From Rickettsia akari str. Hartford (GTDB lineage: Bacteria > Pseudomonadota > Alphaproteobacteria > Rickettsiales > Rickettsiaceae): a stretch of DNA of 64,000 nucleotides. The position numbers were made by a program, and so were the translations under genes. Position 1 is the first letter of the stretch. Each line of letters begins with the position of its first letter. Below, one piece after another: positions 692 to 58,985 of the stretch. The notes beneath the pieces were generated by a model that saw only the letters and a list, made by a program, of their open reading frames with translations, was not told the DNA's origin and did not search any database. The stretch spans positions 992,001-1,056,000 of the forward strand of contig NC_009881.1 of the NCBI RefSeq assembly GCF_000018205.1, in the 5' to 3' direction.

Positions 692-1546
692 TCAACATTT
701 ACGGCAGTGAAAAATAAAGTCCAACGGATTGATTGCTTTGTTGTCTAGTAGAATTTCAAAATGCAAATGTTCACCCGTTGCATTACCGGTTCTTCCTTGT
801 ATACCGATCAATTGACCCCGCTTAATTTTATTGCCTTCCTTAACTAACATTTCCTTTAAATGAGCATATTTCGTAACAAATTTGCGTCCATGTTTAATCT
901 CAACAAAATTCCCGTAATCAGGGGCTCTAGCGGCTTTTATAACAATTCCGCTTGCTGCTGCATATATCGGTGCTGCTTTTTTAGCTTGTAAATCAATACC
1001 GCTATGGAAACATTTCTTTTTTCTTTTCTTTTTATGAGGACTTTTCCTAGTTCCGTAATGGCTAGTAATTTTCGGCTCATATTCTGGCATCATAAGCGGT
1101 ATCGTGCTAATAATCTTATCAAGCTTGATTAGTTCTGAAATATTATTCCTATGAGTCGGTTTTTTTGTAAAATAACTAGCTTCCGGTTTAGAGAGAAACT
1201 TATATTTTGAATTTAATTTTGTTACAACTGCCTTTATATCAGATATTTTTATTTCAGCTGCTTTATTAAATTCTGTCGGGTTTTTATTATAAAATTTTTG
1301 TAAAAAAATCTTATTCTGCTTAGGGTTATTAATTATCATACCTAAGTTTTTTGCGTATATACATTTGTTATTTTTGTTTGTTAAATCATACTGTACTACT
1401 AAATCCGAATGACTGATTTTATATTTTTGCTTTAATTGAGATGAAGTAGTAGAAAGTAATATAGTATCACTAGATTCTTTAATACTGCTGCAACCTTGAA
1501 CAAGAAAAACTATAAATAGTAAAAAGATATATTTTTGAAAAGACAT
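692..1546 (-). CDS. M23-family peptidoglycan metallopeptidase, lipoprotein
   Basis: Predicted zinc endopeptidase (or degenerate amidase activator) acting on peptidoglycan at the envelope. With the ATG at 1546 the protein has 284 residues and a lipoprotein signal peptide ending in LVQGC with Cys19. The C-terminal M23/LytM domain covers about residues 175-284, with HSGIDL near 181 and HLHFE near 260, the usual zinc and catalytic residues. The longer upstream frame (to 1597) was rejected because it puts the lipobox deep in the chain and overlaps rlmJ. The rlmJ stop and this start share a TAATG junction, which suggests translational coupling. The N-terminal half resembles nothing I can name; NlpD-like placement is plausible but not proven. 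Confidence 0.85.
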   Translation of the reverse strand: MSFQKYIFLLFIVFLVQGCSSIKESSDTILLSTTSSQLKQKYKISHSDLVVQYDLTNKNNKCIYAKNLGMIINNPKQNKIFLQKFYNKNPTEFNKAAEIKISDIKAVVTKLNSKYKFLSKPEASYFTKKPTHRNNISELIKLDKIISTIPLMMPEYEPKITSHYGTRKSPHKKKRKKKCFHSGIDLQAKKAAPIYAAASGIVIKAARAPDYGNFVEIKHGRKFVTKYAHLKEMLVKEGNKIKRGQLIGIQGRTGNATGEHLHFEILLDNKAINPLDFIFHCRKC

Positions 1547-2334
1547 TAAAAGTAAATATACGTAAATTTTAAGTTTAAAATATTGCTTAAATAACACGTT
1601 AATTTTTCTAATTCTCCTATAATATTTAGAGGATTAATTAACATTAAGCCACACTTGACCATATTTTTATCACTATTTAAAAGCTCATATTCAATAATTA
1701 TAGCTTCGTTAAATCCAATATTTTTGTAATTGTGGTAAAAATCACGGACCAAAGGTACATCCTTTATAGGATACCAAATTAAGACGGGATTATTAAGAAC
1801 TCGTAGCTTAATTTTTTTAAGTGCTTCAAGTAATTTTTGGAACTCATTTTTTACTTCAAAAGGCGGATCAAGAAAAATTAACCCTCTATTCTCTTTAAAT
1901 GGTAGAAAAGCTTTAATCGCATTATAAGCATCTATATTATGCGTATCTTTTGGTAATAATTTTTTTAAACTTAAATAATCGCTTGGATGCAGTTCGCAGG
2001 CAATTAAACGATCATTTGCTCTTAATAATTGTTTAATTATAAAAGGTGAGCCAGGATAATGATTTTGTCCTGCTAAATTTACTATATTTAAGAAAGTTTG
2101 TAAGAGTTCAAGGATAGGATTAGTAGCTTGCAGTAATTTATTAATTCCCGTATTGCTTTCTAGAGTTTTAGAAGCCGCTTCCGAGTTTAAATCATAAAGA
2201 CCAAGACCTGCAAAAGCATCTAAAACCGAAAAAGGTTTATCTTTTTTCTTAAGCTGTTCTAAAATGCTAATTAGCACTAAATGTTTGACTATATCGGCAA
2301 AATTGCCTGCATGATAAATATGACGATAGTTCAT
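1546..2334 (-). CDS. rlmJ: 23S rRNA (adenine-N6) methyltransferase RlmJ
   Basis: SAM-dependent methyltransferase of the RlmJ (YhiR/DUF519) family, which in E. coli methylates A2030 of 23S rRNA. The start MNYRHIYHAGNFADIVKHLV is the family signature. The SAM-binding region VLDAFAGLGLYDL lies at about residues 38-50, NHYPGSP at 91-97 and the catalytic DPPF at 156-159. At 262 residues it is slightly shorter than E. coli RlmJ (280). It is the upstream gene of a two-gene unit: its TAA overlaps the ATG of the M23 lipoprotein by one base. Confidence 0.93.
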   Translation of the reverse strand: MNYRHIYHAGNFADIVKHLVLISILEQLKKKDKPFSVLDAFAGLGLYDLNSEAASKTLESNTGINKLLQATNPILELLQTFLNIVNLAGQNHYPGSPFIIKQLLRANDRLIACELHPSDYLSLKKLLPKDTHNIDAYNAIKAFLPFKENRGLIFLDPPFEVKNEFQKLLEALKKIKLRVLNNPVLIWYPIKDVPLVRDFYHNYKNIGFNEAIIIEYELLNSDKNMVKCGLMLINPLNIIGELEKLTCYLSNILNLKFTYIYF

Positions 2335-6657: not shown

Positions 6658-7047
6658 TTAAAGGTCGCAATACTTAAGAAAATCGTCAAGTATTGATCCC
6701 CAAAGTTTTAACTCAGTATAAGATTTTATATATATTGCCGTTTTAATTAATCCAAGTAAATATCAAGTCCCAATTACTGAAAATAGGACTATAATATTTG
6801 GAGTATTGAATAATTTATCTTCAATAAAAGCAGTAATGGTTCCTTTAGGCTCGTGTACGATTTGATTAATCAGCTCTCGTAAAATAGCATAATCAAACAA
6901 GCTTTTTTCTAGGGTTTTTAATATAGTAAAACTGTTTTGCCAACAATATAAATTAGGGAGTCCTCTACGACGCTTACGATCTTCAGAATTTGAAAGTGGT
7001 GTTAGAAAGATTATTATTTTTTTATAATGGTCTATGTATTTAATCAA
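6658..7047 (-). pseudogene. Unknown protein fragment with one in-frame stop
   Basis: A 130-codon frame with a TGA after codon 94. Before the stop it reads LRELINQIVHEPKGTITAFI and ends NIIVLFSVIGT; after it continues YLLGLIKTAIYIKS and TELKLWGSILDDFLKYCDL. The sequence across the stop is hydrophobic, so the TGA probably replaced a Trp codon in a membrane segment. I do not recognise the family. Confidence 0.45.
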
Positions 7048-7167: not shown

Positions 7168-7351
7168 GTTCCGAATAATCAATAGAGCAATGGTTTATTT
7201 ACGATCAACCATTAATATCAAGTAAATAACCACCCAAAACCTTAATAAAGTTGAGGATGGTATCATTCAATGGTAAATACCAACCACGTTTACAAAAGGC
7301 TTTAAAAACCCCCGAAATAGCCTTTTGCCATTTCAGTTAAAATTTATACAT
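7168..7351. other. No gene recognised
   Basis: AT-rich, stops in all frames. A possible weak hairpin (ACCACCC...GGATGGT, 7207-7240) resembles the third stem of the structured repeat described at 47.4 and 58.7 kb, but the match is too short to call. Confidence 0.4.
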
Positions 7352-7502
7352 ACGAATCTTGCTGAATTATCTACTCGTCAAGTAGCGGAAGCTAATAATG
7401 CAAGAGGAATGGAAGAAAATCAGGTTGCAAGTAAAATGTATAGCTAAAAACGCCTTAGAAAATAAAACCGGCAAAAAAGTAATCTCAACAGAGAATTATT
7501 GA
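7352..7502 (+). pseudogene. DinD (DNA damage-inducible protein D), internal fragment
   Basis: Reads TNLAELSTRQVAEANNARGM, then EENQVASKM, a frameshift, then AKNALENKTGKKVISTENY before a TGA. This is the conserved C-terminal block of DinD/BRO-domain proteins (LAELSTRQIA..NNA.G..EN, A..ALE.KTGK.VVT.EN). About 50 codons remain; the BRO domain is gone. The family assignment rests on motif recall. Confidence 0.65.
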
Positions 7503-7659: not shown

Positions 7660-7840
7660 AAATACTTACCAATGAGCATAATTTTTGATGGTCTGTGAGG
7701 TCGCAAACTGCCGAAAGTCAGCCACACTAGGTTTTAAGCTTATAGTAACCCTTAAGCTCTGAACATACATAATACCTCCCCGACCGTGAAGTCGAGGATT
7801 ACATTGGTTTTGTGAGAAATGTTCTCACTTTTGGCAGATG
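7660..7840 (-). ncRNA. Candidate structured RNA repeat, copy 1
   Basis: Read on the minus strand this matches the copies at 47.4 and 58.7 kb: AATGTAATCCTCGACT, a hairpin CTCGACT/GGTCGGG, then ATGTTCAGAGCTTAAGG with a return strand TATAAGCTT, and GACCATCAAAAATTATG. No coding frame is conserved. The pairing pattern is kept although bases differ, which argues for function at RNA level. Ends are approximate. Confidence 0.4.
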
Positions 7841-7948
7841 TTTCGACACCATGAAATAGCACTTTGCTACTCCAAGTGTCATTTTATATACAACTTTCAA
7901 GTCAATGATTGTTTGTTATTATACCAACAACGTTCTATACTACTATGC

Positions 7949-9295
7949 CTAAAGAGCTGATGAGACATCAGCTAATAATGACATTTCATGATCTGGTAAC
8001 TCTGGAATATAAGTATATACTCCGCTTGAGGTTTCATCAATTTCAAGTATCGTCTCGAATATTTTCTCAAGACAGTTTTTGTGTTCTTCGGATTGAATAT
8101 CCATTTTCCTCGATTCTTTTATTAAATTCGTAAAAGATTTAATAGCAATAAAATTATCCTTTCCATTAAGAAGATCACATATTTTATGTAATGTGTTACC
8201 TAAGGAATTTATATTAACACATATGTTAGAGACAGAATTTAATTTTGTAATTGCTTTATCTAGACCTTGTATTTTTGATTTTAATAGAAACATATCATAA
8301 TCTTGACCATGTAAATTTATCGTATCTTGCTGAGTGTTGCTTAGTATTGCAAGTATATCTGTTAAATTTCCAATGTCTATCATTTCATCTAATATAGCTT
8401 GAAATTCAATTAGTGTGCTAAGATTTATATTATCCTTTTGTAACTTTATGTTTTCACCCTCTAACCTTATGTTTTCACCCTCTAACTCTAAATTTTTATC
8501 TTTTATATCCCCCAACGTATACCAATCCCATCCATATTTAGCTGCAAAACCTAGACTTATTATTCCAAATACCGTAGCGGTGATATAAGCACCGGTATAT
8601 CCACCGCCATTTGTTTCATCGTTAGGTTTTTCTGTAGTGGCAGTGATTGCCTCAGTGAAAGGTTTACTCAGTAAATCTAAAATATTGTTACCTAGTGCTG
8701 TAGTGGATCTAGCGTCCAACGTTACGTTGAAATAATCTAGAATAACCTTAAGATTATCAGTAGTGAATGTGATTGGTATATTTAATAAATTAAAAATGTC
8801 TACCCCTGCTTCTTGAGCATTGTTCAAAGTTATTTCCTCATTATTAAAAATATCTCTCAAATGATTAACAAGCATTTTTGCATTATGCTCTTGCAAAATA
8901 GCTTCGCATGCATTGGTAGTGCATTCACTTAATTCTACTAAGGTAGCGTTTTGCAGTAAGTGCTTACCTTCTTCTAAAATAAGGCTAGTATTGTTTCCAT
9001 AAGTGACAATAGATTTTATAGGAATTTTAATGCCTGTACACTCGCTAATTACTGCTGATAAATCGTTAGGTACATCTGTTAAATGATTAGAGATTCCTAC
9101 CCAATTACATTCCATATGCTCAACGAAATAACCGTTAGTGAAACTTCCTTTAACAGTATTATATACTGATGAAAATATAGTATCGCCTAACTTATAAATA
9201 ATATGTTTTGTATTGCCAGGTAAGCTACTCACCATTTCATTTGCAAATATAGGCATGAAACAGTTTAAGTTTATACTGAATATAGGCGCCATCAT
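7949..9295 (-). CDS. Hypothetical protein: one membrane segment and a coiled coil
   Basis: 448 residues, not recognised. A strong ribosome binding site (AAAGGAG) sits six bases before the ATG at 9295, and the frame is intact in a region where most genes are dead. Residues about 1-225 show no motif I can name. A Gly-rich stretch leads into a single hydrophobic segment (about 233-256, ITATVFGIISLGFAAKYGW). A helical repeat of NLELEGENIRLEGENIKLQK type follows, encoded by a duplicated stretch of about 21 bases, and then a long helix-rich C-terminal half. It has six or so Cys but no clear signal peptide. The architecture would fit a surface or secreted host-interaction factor. That is a guess from shape and location only. 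Confidence 0.7.
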   Translation of the reverse strand: MMAPIFSINLNCFMPIFANEMVSSLPGNTKHIIYKLGDTIFSSVYNTVKGSFTNGYFVEHMECNWVGISNHLTDVPNDLSAVISECTGIKIPIKSIVTYGNNTSLILEEGKHLLQNATLVELSECTTNACEAILQEHNAKMLVNHLRDIFNNEEITLNNAQEAGVDIFNLLNIPITFTTDNLKVILDYFNVTLDARSTTALGNNILDLLSKPFTEAITATTEKPNDETNGGGYTGAYITATVFGIISLGFAAKYGWDWYTLGDIKDKNLELEGENIRLEGENIKLQKDNINLSTLIEFQAILDEMIDIGNLTDILAILSNTQQDTINLHGQDYDMFLLKSKIQGLDKAITKLNSVSNICVNINSLGNTLHKICDLLNGKDNFIAIKSFTNLIKESRKMDIQSEEHKNCLEKIFETILEIDETSSGVYTYIPELPDHEMSLLADVSSAL

Positions 9296-47072: not shown

Positions 47073-47269
47073 ATACTGGATATTTATATACATTTAGTGC
47101 AGTTATTTAATACTAGCTTGGAGTAAGCTAGGAAGTAATTGCTAAAAGCTGGAATAACATTAAGGACATTTTCCGATACATGCATCCATTCTTTAACAAT
47201 AGCTAATTGACTTTTTTAAAAAATTAATTAAAACCTTCCTCAAGAATAGCAATAATGTTATTCTTGATT

Positions 47270-47490
47270 GTAGAAGTCCTTTATCACAGATGGTTAGCAT
47301 TATCCATTTAAAAATGCTCCTCAACTTTGTCATGGTTGGTGTGATTTTAGCTATGTTCAGGGTTTAAAGTACAAATTTTAAACCTAAAAGCTATATAACT
47401 GTTCTGTGACAGTTCTTCTAATGCCCCAACCACCCAAGGTCAAAATCTTTGGCGGTTGAAACTTGAGCAATTTAAGTTTGGGAGCATTTA
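47270..47490 (+). ncRNA. Candidate structured RNA repeat, copy 2
   Basis: Hairpin 1 TCAACT/GGTTGG (47321-47339), hairpin 2 GGTTTAAAG/TTTTAAACC (47361-47384), hairpin 3 CAACCACCCAAGG/TCTTTGGCGGTTG (47428-47458), then AAACTTGAGCAATTTAAGTT. The stems differ in base but not in pairing from the copy at 58.6 kb. A short decayed frame for a helical peptide follows, as at 58.8 kb. Confidence 0.45.
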
Positions 47491-47511
47491 AGTGTTAAAT
47501 CAAGGTAAAAA

Positions 47512-47664
47512 AGCATTTACGATAGAGTATTAGATTCTACTGAACAAGAGATAAATATGCTAAAAGATGAAATTGCATTTTTATTAAGAAATCCTTTCAC
47601 AAAAGAAGATATAGAGAGAATTGAGTAACGTTTAGGAGAGTTGGAAAGCCGAATAATGACTTAA
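47512..47664 (+). pseudogene. Small helical protein following the structured repeat
   Basis: YDRVLDSTEQEINMLKDEIA, FLLRNPFTKEDIERIE, TAA, RLGELESRIMT. Its paralogue at 58800 shares EIxxLxxEIxxLL..P....DIERIEQRLxxL. The TAA again stands where CAA (Gln) is read in the paralogue. Family not recognised; it could be a small accessory protein of a mobile element. Confidence 0.5.
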
Positions 47665-58154: not shown

Positions 58155-58503
58155 ATGAATAAAGAAACAATAGAAGAAAAATTTAAAGACATTGTGAACT
58201 AAAGAAAAAGAATAATAAAAAACTCGATGTCATCCCGTGCTTTATTCACGGGATCCAAAAAAATACCTAAACATCTAGTATTTTAAGTTGTTTTCCTGGA
58301 TACCGTGGACAAGCCACGGTATGATATATCTCTTTAGTTAGCAATGCCAATTTAATAATGTAGTTAAAGCTATTCACAATGCTTATAACTGTGAAATCAC
58401 AGAAGCACAAGCACGACAAACAGGAAGGAATTTTATCACATTTTTTCAAAAGCTTATAGAAGTACAAACTAGATTAGCAAAGGAAAAAAATAATAAAACT
58501 TAA
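58155..58503 (+). pseudogene. Small mobile-element-type protein split by an RPE
   Basis: MNKETIEEKFKDIVN, TAA, then the family B repeat, then NNVVKAIHNAYNCEITEAQA and RQTGRNFITFFQKLIEVQTR. The EAxxxxRNFIxFFxxLIEI ending is common in small proteins of rickettsial and other conjugative elements. The repeat lies between the two halves and destroys the frame. Confidence 0.55.
58227..58326. repeat. RPE-like palindromic repeat, family B
   Basis: GATGTCATCCCGTGCTTTAT at the left and GACAAGCCACGGTATGATAT at the right, with TCCTGGATACCG before the right arm. Confidence 0.8.
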
Positions 58504-58559
58504 GTATTAATTAACTTTTTGGAGGTTATATAAGAATCGTAACCGGAATTGCAACTTGC

Positions 58560-58790
58560 TATTTCGGGACGCAAGAATCTCTTGCTATTATGGTAATACA
58601 TCAGCCATACAATGGTGTAATCCTCGACTATGTTATGGTCGGGTCGGCGATAGGCATGTTCAGAGCTTAAGGATCACTTTAAGCTTGAAACCTATTGCAA
58701 ACTGTTAGTAGCGGTTTTCTTACCTACCAGACCACCAAAGTTAAACTTTGATGGTCGAAACTTGAGCAATTTAAGTTTAATAAATCGGGC
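58560..58790 (+). ncRNA. Candidate structured RNA repeat, copy 3 (best preserved)
   Basis: Hairpin 1 CTCGACT/GGTCGGG (58623-58629 with 58637-58643), hairpin 2 AGCTTAAGG/CTTTAAGCT around ATCA (58664-58685), hairpin 3 GACCACCAAAG/CTTTGATGGTC (58730-58756), then GAAACTTGAGCAATTTAAGT. Upstream TTGCTATTTCGGGACGCAAG may add a stem. The stems match those at 47.3 and 7.7 kb in position while bases differ in compensatory pairs. No protein frame is conserved through it. Confidence 0.5.
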
Positions 58791-58799
58791 ATAATGATT

Positions 58800-58985
58800 A
58801 TGTCCAACCAAAATAAAACGACCTTATCTGAAATCACATTAGAATTTGCTGCAAAAGAAATAGAAGCTCTACAAGCTTAGATCGTGCTTTTGCTAGAAAC
58901 CCCTCTAATACACAGCGATATAGAAAGAATAGAACAACGTTTAGTCAAACTAGCAGAAATATTTGTTAATGGTTTGTATACTTGA
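58800..58985 (+). pseudogene. Small helical protein following the structured repeat
   Basis: 62 codons: MSNQNKTTLSEITLEFAAKE, IEALQA, TAG, IVLLLETPLIHSDIERIEQR, LVKLAEIFVNGLYT. One nonsense codon in an otherwise open frame. The paralogue is at 47512. Predicted to be two helices; not recognised. Confidence 0.5.

Follow-up and report, generated by a model that had tools for sequence, protein, structure and literature searches.

A predicted structured RNA, repeated in Rickettsia, with a likeness to the C4/CI antisense leaders of phages

The window analysed here, a 64,000-nucleotide stretch of the Rickettsia akari str. Hartford chromosome (NC_009881.1, positions 992,001 to 1,056,000 of the forward strand), carries four copies of a structured repeat, and remnants of small ORFs lie behind several of them (Table 1). 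Three of these copies, near 58.5, 47 and 7.6 kb, had been named in an earlier note made from the sequence alone, and all three are recovered at those places by R1, the covariance model that we built of the repeat. The note overlooked the fourth, truncated copy, and while the copies it described are real, their true start lies further upstream than it had placed it, at a promoter-like TTGACT..TATAAA present in most copies. By blastn, the R. akari genome holds five near-complete copies, two of which lie outside the window. Both plus-strand copies are indeed followed by a small ORF with a DIERIEQRL-like block, interrupted by stops in the window, and the intact small gene that the note proposed to look for exists, as intact homologues are present in relatives. 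Neither of the two ORF classes distinguished in Table 1 stands directly behind the 7.6 kb copy; directly upstream of that copy lies a DUF5460 ORF of 448 aa (window positions 7949-9295, minus strand). The window copies are relics: their ORFs are broken by stops or missing, and the complementary stretches described below as address pairs are partly worn.

Table 1. Features of the repeat copies and their surroundings in the window (position 1 is the first base of the 64-kb stretch)
Feature	Position	Strand	Remarks
Remnant of small upstream ORF (...EAQARQTGRNFITFFQKLIEVQTRLAKEKNNKT)	58342..58503	+	same ORF just 5' of the RNA in L012 and L024
Promoter-like region, degenerate here (most copies have TTGACT..TATAAA)	58512..58537	+	
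5' hairpin I of the predicted leader RNA	58541..58566	+	
a1, upstream stretch complementary to a2	58566..58579	+	weak in the decayed 58.5 kb copy
b1, variable stretch	58582..58590	+	pairs with b2 at 9 positions, three of them G-U (two at one end, one inside)
Copy 1, core, R1 match	58613-58756	+	129.8 bits; one of the 46 rows of R1
Predicted RNase P cut	before 58637	+	putative
C4-like core: outer stem GGTCGGGT/ACCAGACC around two hairpin arms	58637..58733	+	7/8 stem pairs by eye
b2, in the core's second hairpin arm	58706..58714	+	
a2, linker and part of the outer stem's 3' strand	58717..58728	+	
3' hairpin GACCACCAAAG..CTTTGATGGTC, overlapping the outer stem	58730..58756	+	
ACCA immediately 3' of the outer stem (tRNA-like end)	58734..58737	+	seen in the sequence
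Class A small ORF, broken by an in-frame stop	58794..58985	+	pieces 58794-58880 and 58881-58985
Copy 2: promoter-like start and leader RNA	47207..47457	+	R1 core match 47310-47457, 119 bits; not a row of R1
Broken class A small ORF 3' of copy 2	47493..47664	+	
Copy 3 of the RNA	7664..7904	-	R1 match 7664-7806, 93.4 bits; not a row of R1
Copy 4, truncated	about 7228..7352	-	R1 match; absent from the earlier note
Class B ORF remnant, degraded, 3' of copy 4	6763..7047	-	

Distribution and predicted fold of the RNA

Searched by blastn, 22 of 58 genomes contain matches, R. akari itself included, and 20 of these are among the 23 genomes of the genus Rickettsia; a match outside the genus (L027, in genome G042) is unconfirmed by R1 (E 1.8). 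The 88 matches in the loci reduce to 68 distinct near-full-length copies, and 52 of these, 51 from the genus and one from a sister genus, make up alignment A1, from which near-identical rows as well as L019 and L038 were removed and to which the window's 47 kb copy and L004 were added by hand. Alignment A2 and model R1 have 46 rows, six of A1's 52 being left out, and R1 leaves out the upstream stretches a1 and b1. The covariance search of Rickettsiales proposed in the earlier note, run with R1, found the RNA in 46 of 131 genomes of R. akari's order, with up to 15 copies per genome, and a second model, R2, built from 47 order-wide copies, found it in 44 of 299 genomes of the phylum; both counts include R. 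akari and come from searches without shuffled or control genomes, and the two genome sets may overlap. Phage and plasmid collections, which may lack near records, yielded no similar DNA at E 1e-5.

Several arrangements were observed among these copies. RNA copies stand close together in tandem in L008 (815, 1470), L009 (777, 1464), L010 (780, 1321) and L018, whereas in L081 two copies on opposite strands, 1111-1230 (minus) and 1482-1594 (plus), are about 250 bases apart. One copy (L066) lies directly before recA. Genome G413 has 15 model matches, and seven of its eight copies with sequence behind them (L110, L121-L124, L126 and L129) precede prepilin-like ORFs (GFSLVELSIVLVILGLL).

Read from 5' to 3', the predicted RNA consists of a promoter-like start, a first hairpin, a1 (like GGGGCTTAGAAACC), the variable b1, a small hairpin, the core, a 3' hairpin and a spacer, which is short and reads GGGAG or GGGG in many copies by eye, with an ORF next in many. 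TTGAC stands at the start of 57 of the 68 aligned copies, and the simple two-box pattern TTGACT..TATAAA fits 56 of them. The core is formed by an outer stem, GGUCGGGG/CCCCGACC, around two arms, of which the long one has an internal loop and the short one reads CUG..CGGUUUU. The paired hairpin changes that the earlier note had quoted between copies are present in the sequence, and its view that pairing was selected is supported by compensatory changes, which persist when more copies are added. RNAalifold predicts 40 pairs for the 52 copies of A1, and 25 of these show double-sided compensation at least once; the core taken by itself, in 46 copies, gives 37 pairs, of which 20 are compensated. Across 47 distant copies, in an alignment fitted to the structure, double-sided changes occur in 21 of 26 pairs, and 98.0% of cells are paired against at most 54.3% when the columns are slid. 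These compensatory changes support the predicted fold.

The outer stem calls for separate treatment, since it was imposed in R1 because of the comparison with C4 RNA discussed below. The RNAalifold consensus favours a competing upstream hairpin, CUCGAC/GGUCGGG, over this stem, and in the stem's own columns 90.4% of cells are paired versus 88.1±0.5 after shuffling. It starts with GGU in most of the 52 rows and is followed by ACCA in 40 of them (by ACCC, ACCT, ACTA or ATCA in the other 12), while a CCA-type end is present in 40 of 49 wider loci. From the GGU start and the ACCA end, excision by RNase P is predicted.

Complementary stretches within one leader

Each of two stretches 5' of the core, a1 and b1, has a complementary partner within the core, a relation that the earlier note had missed. 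The partner of a1, a2, comprises the linker and the CCC of the outer stem, and that of b1, b2, lies in the second arm. Both pairs vary widely between copies and yet co-vary: versions of a include TTAGAAA/TTTCTAA, TTCAAAG/CTTTGAA and TTAGCGA/TCGCTAA, versions of b include GTTAGCA/TGCTAAC, GTTACCA/TGGTAAC, GTAAACG/CGTTTAC and ATCAACG/CGTTGAT, and more than 20 different address pairs exist among the 52 rows. Over these rows, with shuffles that ignore relatedness, the summed helix score of b1:b2 was 847 versus 538±20 (0/5000 shuffles) and that of a1:a2 1131 versus 964±20 (0/5000). The named columns of a1:a2 hold 78 double-change cells, compared with 28.5±6.9 after shuffling; a shift of one to three columns leaves no more than 12.

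Because such shuffles ignore relatedness, we also tested separate loci found by a model without a1 and b1. In 49 loci outside the family, drawn from 92 such R1 matches of the order search and mostly the better-scoring ones (L114 and L125 were kept though their core was wrongly delimited), b1:b2 scored 1004 versus 701.5±18.1 (0/5000) and a1:a2 712 versus 625±13 (0/5000). In the first 14 order-search loci a1:a2 alone was weaker, at 194 versus 180.7±4.9 (22/5000).

How private these pairs are can be judged from cross-comparison. A copy's own b partner was best or tied best in 34 of the 52 rows; in the 49 loci the own partner was best or tied best in 26 for b and in only 3 for a. That it is often not the best is partly because related copies share types and because a is less variable: a works as a class, b as an address. 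One genome has 15 copies, and among the 10 of these that were used, own pairs scored a mean of 20.2 (lowest 15) against a mean of 11.0 for cross pairs (highest 18) and 11.6 for shuffled letters. As some cross pairs thus score at or above the lowest own pair, the address pairs are largely, not strictly, private. Pairing of b1 with b2 is poor in L005, L035, L067 and L075. In L035 and L075, b1 and b2 belong to different address types, as might result from recombination between copies. The region around the start codon of the ORF that follows showed no copy-specific complementarity to the core (1184 versus 1154±22, 286/3000), and a second target of the kind described for phage P4 is therefore missing.

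Genes behind the RNA and its probable prophage setting

In Rickettsia the RNA is followed by ORFs of 56-64 aa or of 133-169 aa, while in wider relatives it stands before serine recombinase, prepilin-like, lipoprotein-like or KilA-N genes. With a following gene this variable, the cognate small protein suggested in the earlier note is doubtful. The class A ORF has 29 homologues, all from Rickettsia or the spotted fever group where named, and the class A ORFs of L030 and L033 matched no Pfam or PHROG family above the cut-off. In L046 and L053 this ORF has an in-frame extension of about 34 residues (YSKLIPTLCFVVRPFAYYYRLRSSRLSQNGAEF..), which we take to resemble a Rickettsia palindromic element.

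Sequence comparison did not identify class B as a serine recombinase: the class B proteins scanned had no Pfam Resolvase match, comparison with PDB profiles gave only hits of E 0.048 and above, to integrins and NinB, and the hhalign probability was 8.5. Weak NinB signals (E 0.013 to 0.12, all below the cut-off) recur in L041, L104 and L106. The fold and L108 (E 1.5e-8 with a custom HMM) speak for a putative recombinase-like domain in class B; the HMM was seeded with L116 and L117, so these two match it by construction, and both also match Pfam Resolvase independently. At L108:1703-2047 lies a 115 aa ORF that is class B-like by eye and serine-recombinase-like by the custom HMM, followed by a serine recombinase ORF of 363 aa.

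Two less decayed copies, L090 and L094, lie in a neighbourhood of phage genes, with a serine-recombinase-like ORF and an integrase behind them. In L094, a small gene is followed by a RuvC-like gene (phrog_159), the RNA, a class B ORF and a two-piece serine integrase (phrog_95); the opposite strand carries Sak4-like, Cas4-type exonuclease and primase/helicase genes. The arrangement in L090 is the same: a gene with a weak HTH, an ORF resembling RuvC by eye (no Pfam match), the RNA, class B and a piece with a Resolvase domain, with AAA genes on the opposite strand. The link to a mobile element that the earlier note had drawn is thus supported, and the element resembles a prophage. In L012, which represents the same place as L090, a small ORF immediately precedes the RNA, and its remnant precedes the 58.5 kb copy in the window; a prophage origin of the window copies is thereby supported, though not proven. 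By eye, further copies (e.g., L092, L093 and L095-L097) lie among host genes. The Rickettsia element likely came with prophages, situated between a RuvC-like gene and a serine integrase.

Known relatives and competing explanations

The closest parallel in layout is the C4 RNA of phages P1 and P7 and the CI RNA of satellite phage P4 (RF01695, with RF03163 and RF01394), self-targeting antisense immunity RNAs that silence genes of the phages themselves. According to the available part of PMC4825925, the P4 CI RNA arises by processing of a primary transcript and has two pairing partners, seqA upstream and seqC downstream, and the accessible text of PMC5320573 places the RNase P cut of phage C4 at the 5' end of the outer stem, at GGW, as given for the P1 stem. 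In the P4 cI region, Rfam C4 scores 74.9 bits, and isrK (60.8 bits) and c4-a1b1 (44.1 bits) match about 110-150 bases upstream; c4-a1b1, described as 'targets of C4 antisense RNA', has a gathering score of 46.7, so that its match lies just below. The Rickettsia RNA shares with C4/CI the outer stem, two hairpin arms and 3' linker, the GGW start, upstream a1/b1 targets on the same transcript, the phage setting (in L090 and L094) and the variable target stretches. Set against the C4 structure line, the outer stem and two arms are kept by compensatory changes, with RNAalifold preferring the competing hairpin, and a1 and b1, lying upstream, have their complements inside the RNA, as in C4. It differs in its larger first arm with an internal loop, in its extra 5' hairpins, in downstream genes that are no recognised antirepressors and in the second downstream target, which was not found. 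Rfam C4 gave no match in the window at its gathering score and none in L008, L009 and L030 with the threshold relaxed to E 10, and the P4 C4 is in turn matched by neither R1 nor R2; common descent with the C4 of P1 and P4 is therefore unsupported. The earlier note's remark that it knew no description of the repeat holds in so far as no Rfam family reaches its gathering score over it in the window, but its kind, that of the C4/CI antisense RNAs, is already known.

Other known RNAs share part of this picture. The core layout of sRNA-Xcc1 (RF02221) is the same as in Rickettsia, and upstream matching stretches also occur at 12 RF02221 loci, where a1:a2 scored 228 versus 185±11.5 (0/5000) and b1:b2 233 versus 202.5±9.8 (16/5000). 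The Rfam model of sRNA-Xcc1 matches L008 and L009 over its full length at 28.5 bits, below its gathering score of 53, and finds nothing in the R. akari genome at E 10; at E ≤0.001 it has matches in 36 of 289 genomes of R. akari's class, with up to 13 copies per genome, compared with none at E 0.001 and two at E 10 in 14 control genomes. Conversely, R1 matches one of the 12 sRNA-Xcc1 loci (E 3e-5) and R2 five (E 2.5e-11 to 0.0015). One sRNA-Xcc1 relative precedes a KilA-N gene. In the accessible part of its description, sRNA-Xcc1 is an integron-borne, trans-acting sRNA with no mention of an upstream self-target; judging by the sequences, we read it as a probable relative with the same kind of self-target. 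A leader arrangement similar in part is that of IsrK-orf45-anrP in the Gifsy-1 prophage, also a structured leader RNA, a very short ORF and a regulator, though the available part of PMC4825925 likens IsrK to the SeqA of P4, that is, to the target part and not the antisense core.

Taken together, the Rickettsia repeat is probably a divergent antisense leader of the C4/CI type that would silence the gene behind it. By calculation we have support for its fold, the covariation of a1:a2 and b1:b2, the variety of these pairs, the ACCA end, the promoter-like start and the phage neighbourhood of two copies, and among the roles that the earlier note had offered for the RNA, that of an antisense or regulatory leader is supported, and no observation favours the guide or the origin reading. 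Transcription, excision by RNase P, pairing in trans and silencing we infer, in a sequence of steps that would run as follows: the leader promoter would give a transcript, RNase P would cut it and release the folded core that holds b2 and a2, and this core would pair with a1 and b1 on further leader transcripts of the same kind and so block the next gene at the level of transcription or translation. An incoming phage, if related, would be kept silent likewise.

Since all of the complementarity lies on one predicted transcript, a leader acting purely in cis has to be weighed against this reading. In such a switch a1 and b1 would fold onto a2 and b2 of the same molecule in competition with the outer stem, and the leader would toggle between two shapes that set read-through or translation of the next gene, with no processed antisense RNA. 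The GGGG of a1 does vie with the outer-stem GGUCGGGG for one and the same CCC in a2, and the upstream CUCGAC is a further possible partner of GGUCGGGG. However, a switch of this kind needs no such variety of pairs, yet in the one genome examined copy by copy (10 copies) cross pairs average like shuffled letters; nor does it give the tRNA-like ACCA end a role, and the layout matches that of P4 CI with its upstream target, which acts as an antisense RNA according to the available part of PMC4825925. We therefore regard a switch in cis as rather unlikely. We give still less weight to a phage-derived sRNA that now acts on host transcripts elsewhere, its upstream stretches being mere relics of its origin. 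There is precedent, as the accessible text of PMC5320573 describes many C4-like sRNAs in A. baumannii that differ in their target-specifying stretch and proposes this role for these multi-copy, C4-derived RNAs; their Group 1, like the Rickettsia RNA, has many copies per genome, a conserved fold, a variable target stretch and a GGW motif, but it is recognised by the Rfam C4 motif and that text describes no upstream self-target for each copy. In the wider order, moreover, the RNA precedes prepilin-like and lipoprotein-like genes. Against this, a1:a2 and b1:b2 in the 49 order-wide loci match much better than shuffled pairs do, which points to continuing selection on the upstream stretches.

The dispersal of the copies, some of which precede serine recombinases in wider relatives, would also fit a transposon end, a guide RNA or a DNA recombination site (an IS end, an IS110-type bridge RNA or an integron attC) in place of an antisense RNA, and IS110-like ORFs (by eye) lie about 0.65 kb (L093:8673-9302, plus) and about 5 kb (L092:12902-13723, minus) from an RNA copy. 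Yet across the eight listed neighbourhoods no single transposase accompanies the RNA, the variable stretches are matched to one another, and the promoter-like start and ACCA end argue for a transcript, which makes this origin very improbable. Flanks are shared only in subsets of copies among the matches listed.

Beyond Rickettsia, a more far-reaching idea can be put forward only tentatively, namely that self-addressed silencers of this kind are spread across the phylum. With private address pairs, a genome with at least a dozen copies could silence a dozen genes separately (recombinases, prepilins, lipoproteins) and avoid crosstalk, so that a phage immunity device would have become a set of orthogonal host switches; Rickettsia would hold a prophage-borne branch, and sRNA-Xcc1 would belong to the same group, with its target just upstream.

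We found no report of a phage-type antisense immunity RNA in Rickettsiales in the openly available literature. If the antisense reading is true, it would place such an RNA in this order, give sRNA-Xcc1 a concrete and testable target, and offer many natural antisense address pairs, several of them side by side in one genome. Annotators of Rickettsia genomes, for their part, gain a model for a repeated intergenic sequence that Rfam leaves unlabelled in the window.
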